DNA from: Sulfobacillus thermosulfidooxidans
Lineage (GTDB): Bacteria; Bacillota; Sulfobacillia; Sulfobacillales; Sulfobacillaceae
Length of the DNA stretch: 64,000 nt
Direction: 5' to 3'
Assembly (NCBI RefSeq): GCF_001280565.1
Contig: NZ_LGRO01000001.1
Coordinates: forward strand, 2,046,001 to 2,110,000
The notes under the pieces were generated by a model, which was given only the letters and a program-made list of their open reading frames with translations, made no database searches and was not told the origin of the DNA. Made by a program: the position numbers and the translations under genes. Positions 11,964 to 25,517 of this stretch are shown here, piece after piece. Position 1 is the stretch's first letter; every line of letters starts with the position of its first letter.

Positions 11964-12857
11964 ATGAAAGCTTCCTCAAGTCAAAGAAATCGAAGAAGTC
12001 GCCATACCTCCAAGTGCCCCACCATTTCGGTCGTCATTCCCGCGAAAAACGAAGCCCGCCTAATCGCTCAGACGATGATGACGGTGGCCGAAATCCTTGG
12101 GGACGCAGGTTATGCCTTTGAAATCATTGTGGTCGACGATATGTCGAGTGATGATACCGTTTTGCGTGCTCAGTGGGCTCGCCAGCAAATGTCTTCCATT
12201 TCCTGCCGGATTATTTCGACACACAAGTCATTAGGTAAAGGTCATGCCATTGCGAAGGGCTTTGCGGTAAGCACTGGGGATCTCGTGGCTTTCATTGACG
12301 CGGATCTCGAATATCCCCCTCAATCTTTGCCCATTATGGCATCCTTATTGGAAACCTACCAACATGGCTGTGCGATTGCCTACCGCATAGAGGATAAACG
12401 CCCATGGTTTGAGCGGATCACCTCAAAAGCGGCTCACCAATTAGCGACATTAGCTCTGCATCTTCCCGTTTCGGATACCCAAGCCGGACTGAAAATGTTT
12501 CCCGGGTGGTTTGCCCGCCAACATTTATCGCATCCCCGTCAAACCGGATGGCTGTATGATATCGAAACCTTGTTAACCGCTCAACGTCACGGGCTCCGTA
12601 TTATTCAAATTCCTGTGACCCAACAAAGCCTGCGCAAAAGACGCGCAGGCGTGTGGCAAATGCTCGCGTGCGCCATTCCGCTGACACAATTAGCCTGGAC
12701 TCACTGGCGTCAGTCATGGCTATCAAAAGCTCCATTTGGACGGCCGCAAAGCCCCGCCTCTTATATGTCTCATAAGCGGAGGTCTTGGCCACTCGCCGTA
12801 CCATCCAGGCCGCCGCTTTTGACCGTAGACACTTCTGACGATTCCCATTCTCATTAA
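11964..12857 (+). CDS. Family 2 glycosyltransferase (dolichyl-phosphate sugar transferase type)
   Basis: A 297-residue GT-A fold enzyme. The nucleotide-sugar binding core is clear: TISVVIPAKNEARLI, then EIIVVDDMSSDDT and LVAFIDADLEYPP with the DxD motif. A later QAGLKMFP segment corresponds to the acceptor-side motif of polyprenyl-phosphate glucosyl/mannosyl transferases. No C-terminal membrane domain is obvious. ATG 11964 has AAAGGGATACGG upstream. It is the first gene of the island that carries the exosortase. In other bacteria exosortase loci typically sit with glycan genes, so a role in glycosylating sorted surface proteins is possible but is inference. Confidence 0.85.
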   Translation: MKASSSQRNRRSRHTSKCPTISVVIPAKNEARLIAQTMMTVAEILGDAGYAFEIIVVDDMSSDDTVLRAQWARQQMSSISCRIISTHKSLGKGHAIAKGFAVSTGDLVAFIDADLEYPPQSLPIMASLLETYQHGCAIAYRIEDKRPWFERITSKAAHQLATLALHLPVSDTQAGLKMFPGWFARQHLSHPRQTGWLYDIETLLTAQRHGLRIIQIPVTQQSLRKRRAGVWQMLACAIPLTQLAWTHWRQSWLSKAPFGRPQSPASYMSHKRRSWPLAVPSRPPLLTVDTSDDSHSH

Positions 12858-13038: not shown

Positions 13039-13129
13039 ACGGACTAAAGCATTTTGAATTATTGTAAATCTGCCTCGTTACGATAATGACTCGTTAGCAC
13101 TAATTCACTTGAATAGGAGGTGTGCGGCC

Positions 13130-14983
13130 ATGATGGAGCCGTCTTTAACCGTGGCATCCCCCATGTCACCTAGTTCCCTGTTAGGTCGCCATGAAGAGTG
13201 GGCCCTTCTCAATACGCTGACGGATTTCTCGCATCCCAAACGTCCTATCGTATATCTCTTTGGACCTTCCGGATCCGGCAAATCTCATGTTGCTGAACAA
13301 TTCTTTGAATATCAAAGACATTGTGGGAAGCGTGCATTATATTCCCAGGCGCGTTTAATCGGCCAAAATGAACAAGATATCACCCGCTACGTACAACAAG
13401 TATTTGAATTTGAACCCGCCGACAAGAAATGCGAATGGTCGCAATTGGCCTTTAAAGCACGAGACTTGATTTGGATTATTGATGACTATGATGAATGGCG
13501 CCGTCATCAATTATGGTTTTGGCCCGTGTTAACCGATATGCGTCATTTGGGCGCCTGCATTGTCTTAACAGGCAAAGAGGCTCCCCAAAGACTTTGGGCC
13601 GGTCAATCGGAGCATGTGCTCGAAACTCTCCCGTTAGCAGACTTTGATAAAGAAACCATGTTGGAGATTTGTCGCCAATTTGAATTGCATGATCCGGATC
13701 TCGTATCCGAAGCCATGGCCATTTCGCGGGGACGCCCTCGCCTCTTATATGCTATGGCCCAAGGCATTAAATTAGTCAAAGACATGCTTCCTCCGGAAAG
13801 TCACTTAAATGCTAACCTTTTCCACACCCAGCTGCCCATGTTTCTGATCGAACAGGTGTGTCACCCGGGCTCGCGTCGCATGAGATGGCGAGCTGGGCAA
13901 GGCAGCCATCAGTCCTTTGATCTTCTCATGGCTGCCGCATCTTTGACACCCATTTTTACCCGTGAGTTACTAAATCAGTTAATTGGGCACAACGCGGTTA
14001 ATGAATCATGGGATGAGTTCACAAACTCCCCGTTTTTGGATGTCTTTCAAGGCGGATATTTTGGCTTATATAAAGGGCTGCGCCAACGAATTCGTCACGC
14101 CACACAACAAGCGCGTCCTTGGATTTGGGAACAATGGACACGGAAAACGGCACACTATTTCATCAATCTTGTCGAAACCACAGAAAATTCCTTTCCCTTC
14201 GTTTGGGAACAACTCGTTGGTCTTATTCGCTGGAAACTGGGCCATTCAGCCTTCGAAGTGGACACCTGGCAAGAACAGGAATGGCAGATTATCCATGAGT
14301 CAGACTTAAACACGCAGGAAAATACGGAATCCTTTTCCGTCATTGATGAGCAAAAAAGACGTTTAGGAACCCTTACATTTTTCCGCAGTCATCCGGAGCC
14401 TAAGCTCGTTATCACGGGCATCGTCAGCCATGACAATAACATGGCGGTCCCGTTCATGTTGTTTAGTCACGTGATTAAACATTCGGTGCAGTATCCTAAA
14501 ATAGTATGGGCGTTAACACCGCAACATCCCATGACCTCATCTTTTCACGCACTTTTGCACTATCTTGGTTTTATCGACCACGCAGATGGATCGCAGATTC
14601 TCGACTACAGTCAAGGGAGTGTCATCCCGTGGTTGCAAAGAATTCTACGTTCACCTCAAGGAGAGCCTCTCGAAGATCCGGTGCAAACTGTTCAAAATGC
14701 CTTGCAAGTTTTGTCTTCAGATATAGCATTAAATGAAACCAATCTCTCGCGCTATTGGCAAAGCATTGCTCACAAAGGAACGTTACGGACCTGGTTTCTT
14801 GACGCCCTGTCTTCCGCCGACTTGGGCTCTAATATTGGCGGACGCACTTTGTTAGTGCTGTATTACTTAAAGAAACAGGGCACTCACGAAGAACTCGCTG
14901 AACATCTACACTTGTCACGCGCCACGTATTTTCGTAATCACCGCACCGCTTTAGAAAAATTGTCGGCTGCTTTGTTCGATTAG
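13130..14983 (+). CDS. Large P-loop ATPase with C-terminal HTH (STAND/MalT-like regulator)
   Basis: A 617-residue predicted regulator. The N-terminal NTPase has Walker A GPSGSGKS at residues 45-52, after LLGRHEEWALL, which is the usual start of AAA_16/STAND modules. Walker B is DLIWIIDDYDEW near residue 110. The long middle has no motif I recognise. The last 45 residues (EELAEHLHLSRATYFRNHRTAL) form a helix-turn-helix, so DNA binding controlled by ATP hydrolysis is likely. ATG at 13130 has AGGAGG nine bases upstream. Its 3' end overlaps by four bases with the convergent HTH/GGDEF-like gene. It may control the exosortase island; phased TGAGAC repeats lie before it. Confidence 0.78.
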   Translation: MMEPSLTVASPMSPSSLLGRHEEWALLNTLTDFSHPKRPIVYLFGPSGSGKSHVAEQFFEYQRHCGKRALYSQARLIGQNEQDITRYVQQVFEFEPADKKCEWSQLAFKARDLIWIIDDYDEWRRHQLWFWPVLTDMRHLGACIVLTGKEAPQRLWAGQSEHVLETLPLADFDKETMLEICRQFELHDPDLVSEAMAISRGRPRLLYAMAQGIKLVKDMLPPESHLNANLFHTQLPMFLIEQVCHPGSRRMRWRAGQGSHQSFDLLMAAASLTPIFTRELLNQLIGHNAVNESWDEFTNSPFLDVFQGGYFGLYKGLRQRIRHATQQARPWIWEQWTRKTAHYFINLVETTENSFPFVWEQLVGLIRWKLGHSAFEVDTWQEQEWQIIHESDLNTQENTESFSVIDEQKRRLGTLTFFRSHPEPKLVITGIVSHDNNMAVPFMLFSHVIKHSVQYPKIVWALTPQHPMTSSFHALLHYLGFIDHADGSQILDYSQGSVIPWLQRILRSPQGEPLEDPVQTVQNALQVLSSDIALNETNLSRYWQSIAHKGTLRTWFLDALSSADLGSNIGGRTLLVLYYLKKQGTHEELAEHLHLSRATYFRNHRTALEKLSAALFD

Positions 14984-15660
14984 CTTAAGGGGGAAGGGGG
15001 TGGCTTTAAATATTGCCCCAAGGTTCGATCCGTCAAATCGGCCAACGCCCGCTCTCGCGCTTGCCCGAGGACTTCCTCCGCCGTGGATTGGGTATCGCCC
15101 GATCCCCATCCAATGGCACAAGGGCTAACCACCCCCCGTATCCGAGAAAGAACATCATGAATTTTTTTTACCGTAACCCAAGGCAAGAAAATTACCCATT
15201 CATGGGGAACCCATTGGATGACCAAATCATCATGCCGCAAATACGCTATCAAATCCACATCAGAGAATGGGCTAAGCGCATGTTCCCCGCATTGTTGGTG
15301 GTCTGGCATTCGGGCAGACATATCAATAATATATAAACAGGACCAGGCACCTTGGACGCGATGGTGTAATCTTTGAATAGCTCGGCGAATCTGACGTTCC
15401 CCGATGGTACGCGGCAATATCGTAGGGCGATCACCACTCTGCGGCACCACAGAAGGTGACCCTCCAACAAAAGTCATACGCTCGACTTCTGACATTTTCC
15501 GAAAGATGTCTTGCCAATACCAGGAAATCCTTGTCGGAGACAGATTCATTGTCTTCGAAATGGCGTCAAAATCATATCCCTCGCTCAGCAACCGCAGTAG
15601 CGTTCGCTCTTGGTTGTCCAACAATATATCTCTAGTGCCTCTTTTCCGGCGTTTCCCCAT
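14980..15660 (-). CDS. HTH protein with degenerate GGDEF domain
   Basis: A 226-residue protein with an N-terminal LuxR-like helix-turn-helix (ERTLLRLLSEGYDFDAIS, then LSPTRISWYWQDIFRKM). The rest aligns by eye with the GGDEF protein at 24594-25325: DLVIQWVPHEWVIFLPW replaces DLVIRWAGDEFVLVLPG. The GGDEF signature is thus VPHEW and the segment that holds the metal aspartate is diverged. It should not make cyclic di-GMP but could bind GTP or c-di-GMP or serve for dimerisation. It converges with the large regulator with a 4-base overlap. ATG 15660 follows CGGGGTGAGTCGCAT. Function as a transcription factor is inferred from the HTH. Confidence 0.72.
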   Translation of the reverse strand: MGKRRKRGTRDILLDNQERTLLRLLSEGYDFDAISKTMNLSPTRISWYWQDIFRKMSEVERMTFVGGSPSVVPQSGDRPTILPRTIGERQIRRAIQRLHHRVQGAWSCLYIIDMSARMPDHQQCGEHALSPFSDVDLIAYLRHDDLVIQWVPHEWVIFLPWVTVKKIHDVLSRIRGVVSPCAIGWGSGDTQSTAEEVLGQARERALADLTDRTLGQYLKPPPSPLS

Positions 15661-17731: not shown

Positions 17732-18349
17732 ATGCCACATCGTTGGTGGATGATTCCTCTCCGTATATTGCTCACCGCGGGTCTGAGTGTGCCATTCTTT
17801 GCCCAAAGCGCAACACCTCTCGCAACCTCACAGCAACGTCAACATAAACATTCACAAGATGCCTTAGTTATGGACTATGTGAATGCCTCTTCCCAAAACA
17901 CAGAACCTGGCCCCCAACAGTGGCAATGGACCATTAAGATTAGCAATGTCAAAACACCCGAAAACTCCGGATTATTCCGCAAAATCAGGGTATTAACCTC
18001 CAATCAGCCACAAAATTTTGTCAAGAACGATAATATTGGGAGTCACCTATTCAATTACCCAATTGGATCCAATCAAGTTGATAACGGGACCATGACCTTC
18101 GCCATGCAAAGTCCCTTCCCTCCACCTAACGCGTCTTTTATTGATGTCTCGGAACATGACACGCCGCAGTCCACATCAGCCGAAGGAAGTGGAAACGGTG
18201 TAGACGTGCGTCAAGAGTCTTCTATCTCAATTACATCTTTACCTTACAGGCAATTACCCGAATTACCCATGGCTAGTGTTCTGCCTGCTTTACTGGTCAC
18301 AGGTTTGGGAATATGGGTATATAAACAACACCGTATAGTATCCCCTTGA
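17732..18349 (+). CDS. Secreted protein with LPExP C-terminal sorting signal (1)
   Basis: A 205-residue exported protein. ATG 17732 follows GAAAGGAAG and begins a signal peptide (MIPLRILLTAGLSVPFFAQS). The mature part is polar, rich in Ser/Asn/Gln, and has no recognised domain. The C-terminus is tripartite: QLPELPMASVLP from residue 174, a hydrophobic stretch, then a short basic tail KQHR. The same signal ends two neighbouring proteins (18588-19142 and 21106-21711) that flank an exosortase. By analogy with PEP-CTERM proteins it should be cut and anchored or processed by that exosortase. Its Met replaces the Trp seen in the other two. Confidence 0.82.
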   Translation: MPHRWWMIPLRILLTAGLSVPFFAQSATPLATSQQRQHKHSQDALVMDYVNASSQNTEPGPQQWQWTIKISNVKTPENSGLFRKIRVLTSNQPQNFVKNDNIGSHLFNYPIGSNQVDNGTMTFAMQSPFPPPNASFIDVSEHDTPQSTSAEGSGNGVDVRQESSISITSLPYRQLPELPMASVLPALLVTGLGIWVYKQHRIVSP

Positions 18350-18587
18350 CTTTAAAAACAGGCGACCATCGCATAGGCTTTGCAAATTCCCTTTTAAACT
18401 CCTCAAATGAATTCCTCATCAAGTATGTCGTGAACAGGAGACGAAGTTTGAGATAGTAATCGCGACTGTTAAACCAGGCCTCATGCGTTATGGTTGCCTT
18501 ATCATCATACGTTTGCTTTGGTGTCCTTAAAGGTTCGAACGCGTGTTGATATCCTTAGCCTTACGATAAGAAGGGGTTGATATACTG

Positions 18588-19142
18588 GTGAGCACCACAT
18601 TTTGGCGATTTTCTGGAATACTTGGTCTGGCGGGATCAGCGCTGTTATCTATGGGCCACTTAGTACTGGCAGCAGAACCGGGCACGGCGAGTAGACATCA
18701 AACTAAGATTATTAACACGAACCGTCCCAGTGCGAATACACCGCCAATCACCATTTCTATGAAAGATAGTGTCAACGGCACTGATGAAGGCTCTATTACC
18801 ATTACAGAATCCACGTCCACTTCGGGAATGGCCACATGGAACTGGAGCGGTCTTGGTATCGGAGATTTTGTCAATGTCTATACGTTTTCCAAAGATTCTC
18901 CTCAAACGCCTACACTTCTTTCGCAAAGTAGCGGCAAAGTCACCACAGCTGGTTCTTATAGTGCAAACATCCAGCTACCAAAAGGAGACACATGGTCCAA
19001 TACTGGCATCGAAATGAGTGAATCAGCCTTTGCAGTGGGCCAATTACCAGAAGTTCCGTGGGCAGCAGCATTACCCCTACTTCTGGTCGTTCCATGGGGT
19101 TTAACCCTTATCCGCCATAGGCGTCAAGTTACCTCCTCGTGA
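18588..19142 (+). CDS. Secreted protein with LPExP C-terminal sorting signal (2)
   Basis: A 184-residue exported protein from a GTG at 18588; the ribosome-binding site AAGGGG is 11-12 bases away, so the start is moderately sure. An N-terminal signal sequence (GILGLAGSALLSMGHLVLAA) is followed by a Thr/Ser-rich region of about 120 residues, possibly a beta-sandwich (GSITITESTSTSG, WNWSGLGIGDFVNVYTF). The end has QLPEVPWAAALP from residue 152, a hydrophobic segment and the basic tail RHRR. It lies directly before the exosortase gene. I see no enzymatic motif; a surface structural role is an inference. Confidence 0.82.
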   Translation: MSTTFWRFSGILGLAGSALLSMGHLVLAAEPGTASRHQTKIINTNRPSANTPPITISMKDSVNGTDEGSITITESTSTSGMATWNWSGLGIGDFVNVYTFSKDSPQTPTLLSQSSGKVTTAGSYSANIQLPKGDTWSNTGIEMSESAFAVGQLPEVPWAAALPLLLVVPWGLTLIRHRRQVTSS

Positions 19143-19419
19143 TAGTCTGGTCAAGCATTTAGGCCAAAACACGGCTTATGATGCCTTAAAATTCCCCCTC
19201 TTCGCCTTCTATACCCAGCTGAGATACCCATTGAGACCGCAGGTAGGACTGACAGCATCTTATATATTTGATTACGCTGTATCTACCATGCTACAAAGCT
19301 GCTGGATTGAATCGAAATCGCCATGGCTGTCTGGAAGCGCCTTTCGGGAGCATTCCACACACTCCAGATTATCCGACCCTTATAGATTTTTCAGGAATGG
19401 GAGGAACAACAAAGACATC

Positions 19420-21045
19420 ATGACAGGAACAGAGATTCATAGCCATCGTAAACATTCGCTTGGCATGCTGTGGACTTTGTGGGTCATCGTTTCCATCTTT
19501 CCTCTATTGGCCTACGCCTCTCCTTTATGGCAGAATGTCTTGGCGGATACTCCCATCGCGGATTTAATTTGGATCCCTATTTTGGCTCTAGGCTGGGCGA
19601 CTTGGAGTATTTTGACCGGGGATTTCAACCGCCCTGATGATAGTGAATTAAATGGTATTTTAGGACTCACTTTAGCCGTTGTTGTCGGGTTATCCCTAGT
19701 CTTAGGCCCCGTCCGTTGGCCCACATTCTTTGTGTTTAATCACGGCGGCCTGTTGTTGTGGCCTTTATGGATATTGGCGATGACCTGGATATTTTGGGGG
19801 ATTGAAGCGACGCGCAAGGTTTTTGCCCCTTTACTCTATCTGGTATTAGTGTGGCCGCCGATTTTTGAAGCCATAGCCAATAACACGCAAACCGCTCTGG
19901 TCAAATGGGCCATTGCCGTATTAAATGATTTGTCCCATCACGTATCCTGGTTACATGCCGCTCAAATTGCGGGAACTTTTGGGGTCAATTACCATGGTCA
20001 AAATATTTTGGTAGTGGTGGCTGAGGCTTGCAGCGGCGCTGATAGCCTCTTAGGGGCTGCTATAGTGATTCCCGTGATTTGGTTTATGTTACAAGGCGGG
20101 AATGGAAAAAAAACCGTGCTGAGTAGTGTTGCCTTATTCGGTGCCTTAATCCTCAACTGGATAAGACTTGCCGTCATCGTTCTTTGTGTTCATATTCTTG
20201 GGCCATCTGTCACCTTTCATTATATCCATCCCGTTCTGGGATTCATCTTGTTTGGGTTGTTGGCCGTTATGTTAGTAATCCTTTTAAAACCCCTCAAACT
20301 CCACATGCCCACAATTCAGATGTCCTCGACGGTAAGATTTGCCGGTTGGGGACGAATTAGTGGGGCCGTGCTTGTTTCTGCCGTACTTTTCTTCTTTCTC
20401 CGTCCCTTATTTAACCTGGCCCAAGGAACGTTTGGCAATCCCAGTCCCGTTAAACGGTACCGGGTTGCAACATTCCTGCCTTCGTTGCCTCAATTTCAAA
20501 AGAGTCCCGCATATTATGCTAATGAATCCTCTGTATTGGGTCCCGATTCTGCAACCCAGGCGGATCTTTACGTCATGCCCCATTCTGGAAAAGAAACACT
20601 CGTCGAAATGTGGAGCACGGCTAACGCGTCCCGACTGGCGACCTACGGATTTCATGCCTGCTTACTATATCACGGCGATAATATCGTAGCATCCCAGTCA
20701 TTTCAACTGGTCCATGGGGTGGTGGCCACTGCTTATGCTGTTAGCCTTCCCCCAAGTACGGTCGGCGGACAGCGATCGACATATGTTGATATCGAGTGGA
20801 GCGACGCAGTGAAAACATCTCAAGGGATTCGCTATCAAAGATGGTCGATTGCCTCGTTTCCCGCTTCTACGCCTAACCCTACCAATCTTCATCTACCCAA
20901 TCATCTTGAACCCTTGACGGCGATCGAAGCAATGACAGCGCCAGGCACGCACGGTCTTTGGCCGTTGGCTACCTTGCATACCAAGACGGTCCTAATCGCA
21001 TTGGCTGACGAAATGTTCCATGCCAGTTTGAGAAACCATGAATAA
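19420..21045 (+). CDS. Exosortase with fused EpsI-like domain
   Basis: Membrane transpeptidase-like enzyme predicted to process the C-terminal sorting signals of the adjacent secreted proteins. From ATG 19420 (541 residues) it has about eight transmembrane segments. The three catalytic positions of exosortases are present: Cys204 in AEACSGADSLLG, Arg249 in LNWIRLAVIV and His270 in HPVLGFILFG. After the membrane part comes an extracytoplasmic region of about 210 residues that resembles EpsI (HACLLYHG, VVATAYAVSLPP, YVDIEW). GGGAGG lies 15 bases before the ATG, rather far; the frame is open up to 19231. Exosortases with recognised substrates are mostly known in Gram-negative bacteria and cyanobacteria, which makes this Firmicutes-like locus unusual. 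Confidence 0.88.
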   Translation: MTGTEIHSHRKHSLGMLWTLWVIVSIFPLLAYASPLWQNVLADTPIADLIWIPILALGWATWSILTGDFNRPDDSELNGILGLTLAVVVGLSLVLGPVRWPTFFVFNHGGLLLWPLWILAMTWIFWGIEATRKVFAPLLYLVLVWPPIFEAIANNTQTALVKWAIAVLNDLSHHVSWLHAAQIAGTFGVNYHGQNILVVVAEACSGADSLLGAAIVIPVIWFMLQGGNGKKTVLSSVALFGALILNWIRLAVIVLCVHILGPSVTFHYIHPVLGFILFGLLAVMLVILLKPLKLHMPTIQMSSTVRFAGWGRISGAVLVSAVLFFFLRPLFNLAQGTFGNPSPVKRYRVATFLPSLPQFQKSPAYYANESSVLGPDSATQADLYVMPHSGKETLVEMWSTANASRLATYGFHACLLYHGDNIVASQSFQLVHGVVATAYAVSLPPSTVGGQRSTYVDIEWSDAVKTSQGIRYQRWSIASFPASTPNPTNLHLPNHLEPLTAIEAMTAPGTHGLWPLATLHTKTVLIALADEMFHASLRNHE

Positions 21046-21105
21046 CTCAGTCATGTTAGTGCTTGCAAAACTTTTCCAATCTCCCCATGAAAGGAGGACG
21101 CCACG

Positions 21106-21711
21106 ATGAAAAAAATCTGGAATCACCGGGTGGGAAAGTCGCTGACCATTTCAGTCGTCATTGCAGGCATTAGTGTCGTCGTGCTCAATCTGGGTTCATT
21201 ACTTGAAGGTGTTCACAAGGCGCATAGCACCTCCGTGCCGTCGCGCAATGTACACCTGCTCTCAGTACACCAATTTTCTAAGGCGTCAACTGATTATCTA
21301 TCGGTTGTCGTTCCGGAAAAAGATTTCACTATAACAGAACATGGTCATCAAGGCATGGCCACTTGGATCGCGCCAGCCAGGTGGCAGCTTAGTTCCGGAA
21401 CTCAAGTTGTTTTGTGGGGATGGCCTAATCAAACCTTAACCACTTTCAGCCATTACGCCCCAGAAATTCTAGGAAAAACTACTATTCACGGTCCCTCGCG
21501 GACGATACGCATCATTTTCACCTTGCCTCCGTCGTGGCCTGACGTCCACGAAGTCTTTCAAATGAAAGTCACGTCCCCCTATTTCGCTAGTCTTAAGTCC
21601 CCGCCCTATGGACAACTCCCAGAAGTCCCCTGGGCCGCGTTATTGCCATTCATAGCACTATCTGGGTTTGGCATAGCATTTTATCACAACAAAAAATCAC
21701 CGCCGATATGA
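21106..21711 (+). CDS. Secreted protein with LPExP C-terminal sorting signal (3)
   Basis: A 201-residue exported protein; ATG 21106 follows AAAGGAGGACGCCACG. An uncleaved or signal segment (SLTISVVIAGISVVVLNLGS) opens it. The middle has beta-rich stretches (DYLSVVVPEKDFTIT, TQVVLWGWPNQTL) without a recognised family. It ends with QLPEVPWAALLP from residue 170, a hydrophobic stretch and the tail HNKK, the same signal as the two proteins upstream of the exosortase. It starts 60 bases after the exosortase stop and is probably in its operon, making it the most likely direct substrate. Confidence 0.84.
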   Translation: MKKIWNHRVGKSLTISVVIAGISVVVLNLGSLLEGVHKAHSTSVPSRNVHLLSVHQFSKASTDYLSVVVPEKDFTITEHGHQGMATWIAPARWQLSSGTQVVLWGWPNQTLTTFSHYAPEILGKTTIHGPSRTIRIIFTLPPSWPDVHEVFQMKVTSPYFASLKSPPYGQLPEVPWAALLPFIALSGFGIAFYHNKKSPPI

Positions 21712-21863
21712 TAGCCATGAGTAATCAGAGCATTTGGGCGCGTGCGCTGACCACGCATGGGGTAAACGCGATTTTCTAAAAATCATTAGCCACAACAAAG
21801 TCAAAATTAAAATAAAAGGGGAGAGTTCAAGAAAAATATTTTGTCTTGGCTTAAAGAAAACAT

Positions 21864-21892
21864 CCAGGCAGATAGCCTATCTATCCGCCTGG
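21864..21892. terminator. Hairpin between convergent genes
   Basis: CCAGGCAGATAG-CCTAT-CTATCCGCCTGG is a 12-bp stem with one mismatch, between the third sorted protein and the leftward dehydrogenase. It can end transcription in either direction, though no long T run follows. Confidence 0.6.
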
Positions 21893-21919
21893 AATTCTCA
21901 ATCTAAAGAAGAGAATTCT

Positions 21920-23022: not shown

Positions 23023-23694
23023 TCATGATCCGAGACGCTCCTGATCGGGTACAAACACCGATGCTAAAGCGACTCGATTTCGCCCGCCCAGTTTCGCGGA
23101 ATACATGGCTTGATCTGCTTCATCAAGGAGAGTCGTCAACGACCGCGGCATTTTTTCCGAATTCGCACTAACGCCTACACTGATGGTGACCCATAATGAA
23201 CGACCACGAATCAAAAATGGCTGAGCGCTGATCTGAGACCGAATACGCTCTGCCACACGCTGGGCGTCAGACAGCGATGTTTCCGGCAACAAAATTACAA
23301 ACTCCTCGCCCCCGTACCGGATACAGGCATCACCTTCTCGCAACTGCATCGCAATACGCCGTCCCACCTCAGTTAACACCGCATCCCCAGAACTGTGGCC
23401 CCAGCGGTCATTCAAAGATTTAAAGTGGTCGATATCCACAAACAGCACCGCCGCGCGAAGTGGATGGGAAATGGATGCCCAGGCGTTCTCCAATTGTCCA
23501 CGTGCTGCCATTTGTGTCAGAGGATCTATTGTGACCAAGAGCCGAAGTTGCTCAAGTTCTTTCGTTTGATTCGCAACTTTCTGAGCTTGTGCAACACATC
23601 CCGCACAACAATACACCTCTCCACGCCAGTGGATTATTGAATCTGCCAAAACAATTCCACAGTGCGCGCATCGAATCGTCGATGCATGGTTCAC
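23023..23694 (-). CDS. Diguanylate cyclase with N-terminal zinc-ribbon-like domain
   Basis: A 223-residue GGDEF protein predicted to make cyclic di-GMP. The catalytic motif is GGEEF in CIRYGGEEFVILLP; VDIDHFKSLNDRWGH holds the metal and substrate residues. The product-inhibition RxxD site is not evident. The N-terminus has two CxxC pairs, CAHCGIVL and CCAGC, resembling a zinc ribbon or treble clef, then a short coiled helix (QKVANQTKELEQLRLL). Input could be zinc or redox state (inference). GTG 23694 follows GGAGGCATAAAG. It belongs with the second GGDEF gene and the dead GGDEF protein of the island. Confidence 0.88.
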   Translation of the reverse strand: MNHASTIRCAHCGIVLADSIIHWRGEVYCCAGCVAQAQKVANQTKELEQLRLLVTIDPLTQMAARGQLENAWASISHPLRAAVLFVDIDHFKSLNDRWGHSSGDAVLTEVGRRIAMQLREGDACIRYGGEEFVILLPETSLSDAQRVAERIRSQISAQPFLIRGRSLWVTISVGVSANSEKMPRSLTTLLDEADQAMYSAKLGGRNRVALASVFVPDQERLGS

Positions 23695-24593: not shown

Positions 24594-25325
24594 CTAATTG
24601 TCCTCGGGACTCATGCGAAAACTTTTGGTTAAAGGTAATCTTTGGTCATAGGAAAGCGCGTGACGGCGATCAATTTCTATGCCCATTCGTTGTTTTTCGG
24701 GTAATTGATTTGTAGCCTTTTTGGCCCGCTTCTCTTGATACATGGCTTGATCAGCGCGGTCAATGAGGGCATTCAAATCTTCCCCCGGGTGGTATTGGAC
24801 AAGACCAATGGAAAATTGAATTTCCGGATCTGCTGTGCGAATTCTCCCGATGAGCTCTTTGGCGACAGGAACTGATGCACCCGGTAGCACCAGCACAAAT
24901 TCATCGCCCGCCCACCGGATCACTAAATCGCTACGGCGAATTTGACTAAAAATCGTATGGACGACACGACACAATAGACGGTCTCCCGCCTGATGTCCAA
25001 AATGATCATTTACCGCTTTAAGGTTATCCATGTCTAAAAAGGCTATCGTTAAAGGATTATGCGCTCTTACGTCACGTATGAGTTTCGCCAATGCCTGTTC
25101 TCCTGCATAGCGTGTTAAAGAACCCGTCAGCAAATCCCAATTGGAAGCAAAGCGTGCCATATTCTCCCCGGTTCCCGCTATTGTTCCGTACCGACTCAAC
25201 AACTCACTAAAGATCAACCGAATCTGTCGGTCCATTTCTTCACGCGAAATACCTAAAATAGTGACCATGTCTTCAATAGATGTTCCTTGCATCATTAGCA
25301 GGCGAATACGATCATTCTCAATCAC
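24594..25325 (-). CDS. Diguanylate cyclase with N-terminal HTH-like region
   Basis: Predicted cyclic di-GMP synthase of 243 residues from the GTG at 25325, nine bases after GGGAGG (a TTG at 25358 is an alternative). The first 50 residues (SIEDMVTILGISREEMDRQI) look like a helix-turn-helix. The GGDEF domain is complete, with AFLDMDNLKAVNDHFGHQAGD and active-site AGDEF in VIRWAGDEFVLVLPG; the A for G change is tolerated in active enzymes. The same HTH plus GGDEF arrangement occurs in the degenerate protein at 14980-15660, which suggests a duplication. It is the last island gene before abrB. Confidence 0.87.
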   Translation of the reverse strand: MIENDRIRLLMMQGTSIEDMVTILGISREEMDRQIRLIFSELLSRYGTIAGTGENMARFASNWDLLTGSLTRYAGEQALAKLIRDVRAHNPLTIAFLDMDNLKAVNDHFGHQAGDRLLCRVVHTIFSQIRRSDLVIRWAGDEFVLVLPGASVPVAKELIGRIRTADPEIQFSIGLVQYHPGEDLNALIDRADQAMYQEKRAKKATNQLPEKQRMGIEIDRRHALSYDQRLPLTKSFRMSPEDN

Positions 25326-25517
25326 GTTTTCTAGCCTCCCAAACCTCCGTCTTCCCAATTCATCCGGGAACTCATGTTGCGTGTCTTAAGCATATCTCGG
25401 GGATAACCAAAATGCAGTGCTAATCCTAGTGCCATCTTCCGTCTCATCATTGTCGGCACGGCCATCTTTTATCCCTGTTTTTTCCAATCCTTTACTCGAC
25501 AAAATTTTTCAAGTTTG

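Follow-up and report, generated by a model that had tools for sequence, protein, structure and literature searches.

Protein sorting by exosortases has mainly been described in Gram-negative bacteria, whose outer membrane makes it harder to establish where the sorted proteins end up. Known exosortases are associated with holding exopolysaccharide (EPS) to cells (PMC12188702), and the substrates of archaeosortase A become lipid-anchored (PMC7157517). The 2006 description listed Firmicutes among the groups without a PEP-CTERM system (PMC1569441), and when bioleaching species were compared in 2017, Leptospirillum alone was credited with an exosortase system (PMC5418355). XrtG is already known from Gram-positives; our literature search, with subscription papers and database annotations outside its scope, found no description of a Sulfobacillus exosortase system. 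Here, we analysed a 64,000-nucleotide stretch of the Sulfobacillus thermosulfidooxidans genome (contig NZ_LGRO01000001.1, positions 2,046,001 to 2,110,000; hereafter the window), which encodes an exosortase among three secreted proteins with a common C-terminal LPExP signal. The locus shares with the XrtA/PEP-CTERM and XrtD/VPLPA-CTERM systems the enzyme superfamily, the catalytic triad, the tripartite tail, Ser/Thr-rich substrates, the link to EPS genes, and an extracytoplasmic C-terminal domain following the EpsH domain. We consider it highly likely that it represents an exosortase/C-terminal-signal sorting system of Sulfobacillus-type Bacillota, in which proteins would be cleaved at LPExP and retained at the surface or in EPS.

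A survey of the window for open reading frames (ORFs) of at least 80 aa yielded 187, including all four that a first-pass annotation had assigned to the system. LPExP occurred in three of the 187, and in all three a hydrophobic stretch and then a basic tail come after it, right at the C-terminal end, whereas shuffled C-termini gave only 0.001 such tails per pass, confirming the common tail claimed in that annotation. The three putative substrates, all on the forward strand, are substrate 1 (17732..18349; secreted, LPELPM-type signal), for which 17732 is an internal ATG of a frame open from 17678, substrate 2 (18588..19142; secreted, Ser/Thr/Asn/Pro-rich, LPEVPW signal), and substrate 3 (21106..21711; secreted, LPEVPW signal). 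Their tails read ITSLPYRQLPELPMASVLPALLVTGLGIWVYKQHRIVSP (ending at 18349), ESAFAVGQLPEVPWAAALPLLLVVPWGLTLIRHRRQVTSS (ending at 19142), and LKSPPYGQLPEVPWAALLPFIALSGFGIAFYHNKKSPPI (ending at 21711), and matched the tail profile with E=2.7e-15, 1.1e-17, and 2e-16, respectively. Throughout a set of 23 tails, P-E-x-P is invariant, as is a further Pro six residues past the last Pro of the motif. When the same 23 tails were compared with NCBIfam and Pfam, no sorting model claimed the signal; only scattered matches to unrelated signals appeared, with E-values of 3e-4 or worse, and PEP-CTERM (TIGR02595) was not among the matches at E<=10.

The genome-wide profile search proposed earlier recovered six tails in the genome carrying the window (G000), namely the three in the window and those at G000:C1:2289074, C1:2530277, and C2:140823, so that the label of a "mini" system understated its size. 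All six tailed proteins are small, secreted, rich in Ser/Thr/Asn/Pro (30-42%), and nearly Cys-free. Their mature parts are mostly unrelated, as had been stated for the three in the window. The proteins encoded at 18588 and 21106, however, look distantly related: their alignment spans 136 columns with 29% identity (E 1e-6, to which the tail contributes in part), and both contain the motif T-x-E-x(4-5)-GMATW. Weak similarity beyond the tail also connects these two products with one of the distant genes.

The enzyme gene lies between substrates 2 and 3 (19420..21045, forward strand) and encodes 541 aa from ATG 19420, comprising a polytopic EpsH domain followed by a C-terminal extracytoplasmic-type domain. 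The frame is open from TTG 19231; homologues start near ATG 19420, which is the probable start, and residues are numbered from it here. The protein matched PF09721 (E=2e-17; 63.9 bits, gathering cut-off 25.7), and its catalytic domain matched the exosortase/archaeosortase signature family TIGR04178 (40.7 bits, cut-off 23). The EACSG, NWIR, and HPVLG motifs named in the first-pass annotation are all present, and their Cys204, Arg249, and His270 are invariant in 20 aligned homologues with identities down to 29%, in the contexts CSGAD, NxxR, and HPxLG. Profile-profile comparison (hhalign) with XrtD and XrtA reference proteins, taken from plasmid records, gave a probability of 97.5 (E=6.8e-12, 357 columns) and placed ACSG on ACSG, NWIR on NSVR, and the catalytic His on His. 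AlphaFold2 (pLDDT 82.9) predicted a polytopic domain with about ten long helices and, after it, an alpha/beta domain. Searches of the PDB by sequence and by fold recovered no exosortase; the sequence search returned no credible relative and full-length Foldseek no significant match. By homology, the product of 19231-21045 is a true exosortase. Searches for the exosortase in viral contigs and on plasmids found none.

Genetic linkage and co-distribution connect tail and enzyme. Of 37 exosortase loci, the window included, 30 have a tail gene close by (4-20 kb were examined around each of the others), and the remaining seven are mostly on short contigs. In many relatives, homologues of substrate 2 adjoin the exosortase, and substrate 3 starts about 60 bp past the exosortase stop. 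Among 154 genomes of the class, with a tail defined by profile E<1e-5, 29 have both tail and exosortase, 4 the tail only, 10 the exosortase only, and 111 neither (Fisher p=1e-18); among the 39 genomes with an exosortase, G051 was counted from a protein search. The ten exosortase-only genomes mostly carry other, shorter exosortases. In a phylum sample of 398 genomes, nine had an exosortase and five a tail match, four of these five with an exosortase; the fifth match was a 46-aa frame with stops and is not credible. Named hosts comprise Sulfobacillus thermotolerans, S. benefaciens, S. acidophilus (a metagenome-assembled genome, MAG), S. harzensis, and Bacillota MAGs, several of which, judging from isolate names, probably come from acid mine drainage. 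Strain Kr1 of S. thermotolerans, a culturable relative, has both the exosortase and tail genes in its genome. Four loci of the same bacterial family (L061, L062, L064, L065) encode a second, shorter exosortase of about 330-360 aa with no C-terminal domain, adjoining tail proteins of 110-145 aa (VPETPYA, LPETPYA).

Clustering of exosortase neighbours across loci revealed a recurrent set of partners. A 730-aa glycosyltransferase of the MshEN-GT2 type was found in 24 loci and a polytopic PMT_2-like transferase in 22, followed by GT2 glycosyltransferases and GGDEF proteins (15 loci each), the substrate-2 family (12), a secreted protein that carries a TIG domain and weakly resembles glycosyl hydrolases (10), and a regulator of the AAA-HTH (helix-turn-helix) type (9). 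The suspected tie to glycosyltransferases and regulators was thus borne out, although the strongest partner, MshEN-GT2, lies outside the window. It adjoins the exosortase in most relatives; in this genome, it is found at G000:C1:2255762-2257972 and forms one block with the TIG protein and the PMT-like gene (G000:C1:2255762-2263292), which is separated from the exosortase by about 190 kb. Across the class, MshEN-GT2 and the long exosortase occur together in 28 genomes, with the exosortase alone in two and the glycosyltransferase alone in three (p=4e-25); genomes with a short exosortase alone are without MshEN-GT2. The N-terminal region of MshEN-GT2 scored 35.9 bits against the MshE-type cyclic di-GMP (c-di-GMP) motif model (cut-off 38). 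Because of this near-cut-off motif, an NfrB-like architecture, and the GGDEF genes nearby, we infer that the glycosyltransferase module may be c-di-GMP-controlled.

Several observations weigh against a dedicated system. The co-occurrence p-values ignore phylogeny, and none of the curated exosortase subtypes (XrtA-XrtW, XrtG, cyanoexosortases) scored the window enzyme over its cut-off (best TIGR02602, 45.3 versus 105.55 bits). Tails in genomes lacking the enzyme, named in the first-pass annotation as contrary evidence, were found in 4 of the 33 tail genomes (G122, G044, G093, G121), all draft assemblies, and a full-profile exosortase search of these four, run without a positive control, found none. 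Two of them look like assembly gaps. In G122, the contig stops 363 bp past the tail gene, on the side on which the exosortase would follow; elsewhere, a homologue of this tail gene precedes the enzyme. G044 is 82% complete, and its tail gene adjoins a GT2 fragment on a contig of 4.8 kb. The other two, G093 and G121 (96-97% complete), remain unexplained. Conversely, G089 and G090 have a long exosortase (L046, L047) and no credible tail, with no recognisable LPExP tail gene nearby or genome-wide; their sorting signal may differ. Nevertheless, homology, linkage, and co-occurrence over the 154 genomes strongly support the original suggestion that a Gram-positive-type acidophile has a dedicated exosortase/C-terminal-signal system, and since the tag and the enzyme are rarely found apart across the class, it is very probably a surface-protein sorting system.

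In the mechanism we propose, the six small secreted proteins would be exported via Sec and arrested in the membrane by their hydrophobic stretch and basic tail. The exosortase would then cut at or near Q-L-P-E-x-P, with Cys204 as the putative nucleophile and Arg249 and His270 assisting, and hand the mature proteins to an acceptor, leading to their retention at the cell surface or in EPS from the linked, probably c-di-GMP-responsive glycosyltransferase module. The linkage to glycosyltransferases leads us to favour a glycan-related destination. The host group is described as Gram-positive, and an outer membrane is therefore probably absent, as in archaea. For this reason, the exosortase might instead cut and join its substrates to a membrane lipid, making them lipid-anchored rather than EPS-bound surface proteins, in the manner of haloarchaeal ArtA, whose substrates are lipid-anchored with the involvement of PssA/PssD (PMC7157517); the match of the catalytic domain to a signature family that includes archaeosortases agrees with this. 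However, the recurring neighbours are glycosyltransferases and diguanylate cyclases, and no lipid-biosynthesis gene was noticed among them, PssA/PssD not having been searched for, so that we regard lipid anchoring as possible but rather unlikely.

Far less probable is that the tails are ordinary membrane anchors, leaving the proteins bitopic and the motif as a mere sign of anchor relatedness. A transmembrane (TM) segment with a basic tail is indeed a generic stop-transfer anchor, and two or three of the mature parts are perhaps distantly related, but P-E-x-P and the second Pro are invariant on otherwise divergent proteins, and such anchors would not explain why the tails co-occur with the exosortase. 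Hardly credible is that a classical class D/E-type sortase sorts the tails, with the exosortase incidental: although such a sortase is encoded in the genome (G000:C1:2246998-2248122; L182:499-1623), all four tail-only genomes have a sortase, and the LPExP start resembles LPxTG, a T-G after LP is absent from the motif in all 23 tails, the tail genes adjoin the exosortase and not the sortase, and the sortase is missing from 9 of the 33 tail genomes, several of them more than 90% complete (G107, G102, G103), while being found in many tail-free genomes. The sortase, whose distribution does not follow the tail, was rejected as the processing enzyme. About 8 kb separate it from the MshEN-GT2/PMT block here and from MshEN-GT2 in the sister genome G109, and the ORF just upstream of it, ending in TGLPIAP-TM-basic, is possibly its substrate.

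The domain fused to the exosortase (20431..21042, forward strand; conserved YGFxxCLLYHG) had been described as EpsI-like. A C-terminal domain indeed exists, but its EpsI relationship appears weak: the exosortase did not match PF11984 (EpsI, DUF3485) at E<=1, and a genome-wide search for PF11984 found no match, the control genomes being negative too. The isolated domain did not align to the EpsI domains of XrtD/XrtA in profile-profile comparison, whereas the full-length alignment to these proteins extends into it and pairs YGFxxCLLYHG with the EpsI motif HSPExCLPxxGW. Modelled alone with AlphaFold2, the domain reached a pLDDT of 89.6. Foldseek returned nothing significant for it, and the nearest structures by VIA-align were Mog1, PsbP, LpqN, MTC28, and Eag chaperones (Z 5.4-7.5), the best being 1jhs (Z 7.5, 4.5 A, 150 aligned). 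The Mog1/PsbP/LpqN/Eag set is coherent, yet suggestive only, since Z-values in this range may reflect a common arrangement alone. Eag chaperones hold the transmembrane helices of effectors, from which one might speculate that the domain handles the hydrophobic tail of the substrates. A more specific and doubtful proposal is that, where an outer membrane is lacking, the long exosortase with its Mog1/PsbP-like domain transfers LPExP proteins to a polysaccharide or glycolipid that an MshEN-GT2/PMT-like module makes under c-di-GMP gating; if true, the exosortase would be a protein-to-glycan ligase of the Gram-positive surface.

Several other genes around the locus belong to families recurring near exosortases. 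Upstream lie a GT2 glycosyltransferase (11964..12857, forward strand), whose homologues in relatives are found no more than 10 kb away from the exosortase (about 15 loci), and an AAA ATPase-HTH regulator (13109..14983, forward), with homologues (25-32%) near the exosortase in several distant loci. They are followed by a LuxR-type HTH protein with a degenerate GGDEF-like region (14980..15660, reverse). Downstream are a GGDEF (GGEEF) diguanylate cyclase (23023..23694, reverse), GGDEF genes being near the exosortase in about 15 loci, and another GGDEF protein (AGDEF), which falls into the same cluster of neighbours (24594..25358, reverse). Promoter and terminator scans stayed at chance level, except for a 13-bp hairpin stem at 21863-21893, between the convergent substrate 3 and 6-phosphogluconate-dehydrogenase-like genes, which is probably a terminator.

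This compact system, carried by sequenced Sulfobacillus species used in bioleaching, couples a single enzyme to six substrates and is consistently accompanied by a glycosyltransferase. What exosortase-sorted proteins attach to could thus be studied in a simpler cell, and the system also suggests how a mineral-attached biofilm of these bacteria may be organised.

Compared with known systems, sortase/LPXTG has the same tail architecture, logic, and LP start, but an unrelated enzyme, TG in the motif, and no co-distribution with LPExP tails. Archaeosortase A/PGF-CTERM is likewise an exosortase-type enzyme acting in cells without an outer membrane on a C-terminal motif-TM-basic tail; its motif differs, and lipid anchoring has been shown in haloarchaea (PMC7157517). 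On the glycosyltransferase side, the NfrB-type c-di-GMP-activated GT2 combines MshEN and GT2 like the partner gene, which differs from it in domain order and in its co-occurrence with an exosortase. Other exosortases of the same phylum with PEP-like tails were also seen: at L187:6354-9550 (G454), an XrtQ-like exosortase adjoins a 797-aa protein ending in IPEPGVWFMIIIALFLILFMLLKSRRRSLCAND, a PEP-CTERM-like pair, and at L189:6771-9829, an exosortase-family protein lies beside a 723-aa secreted protein ending in IPEFPTPVAAILVLGMCAAGYAWFRKRYWERLA in G258, which has a second exosortase. XrtG (TIGR03110) with its TIGR03111 glycosyltransferase is similarly a Bacillota exosortase adjoining a GT2. Such a pair, with XrtG over its cut-off, was found in G368 (L188:5162-8632), where the gene before the pair codes for a secreted protein whose C-terminus has a TM-basic tail (GTPTGPVVGLVFLL...), a possible candidate target of XrtG; a locus in G027 (L190:5713-8407) has a similar gene order. 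However, XrtG is about 190 aa long, whereas the window type, at about 540 aa, has an additional domain and clearly several substrates, and the window enzyme did not match the XrtG model. Relative to the XrtA/XrtD systems, finally, the locus described here is distinguished by its Bacillota host, the LPExPxA signal with a second Pro, tails that match the PEP-CTERM/VPLPA models at noise level at most, an unrecognised C-terminal domain, and its MshEN-GT2/PMT-like partners.

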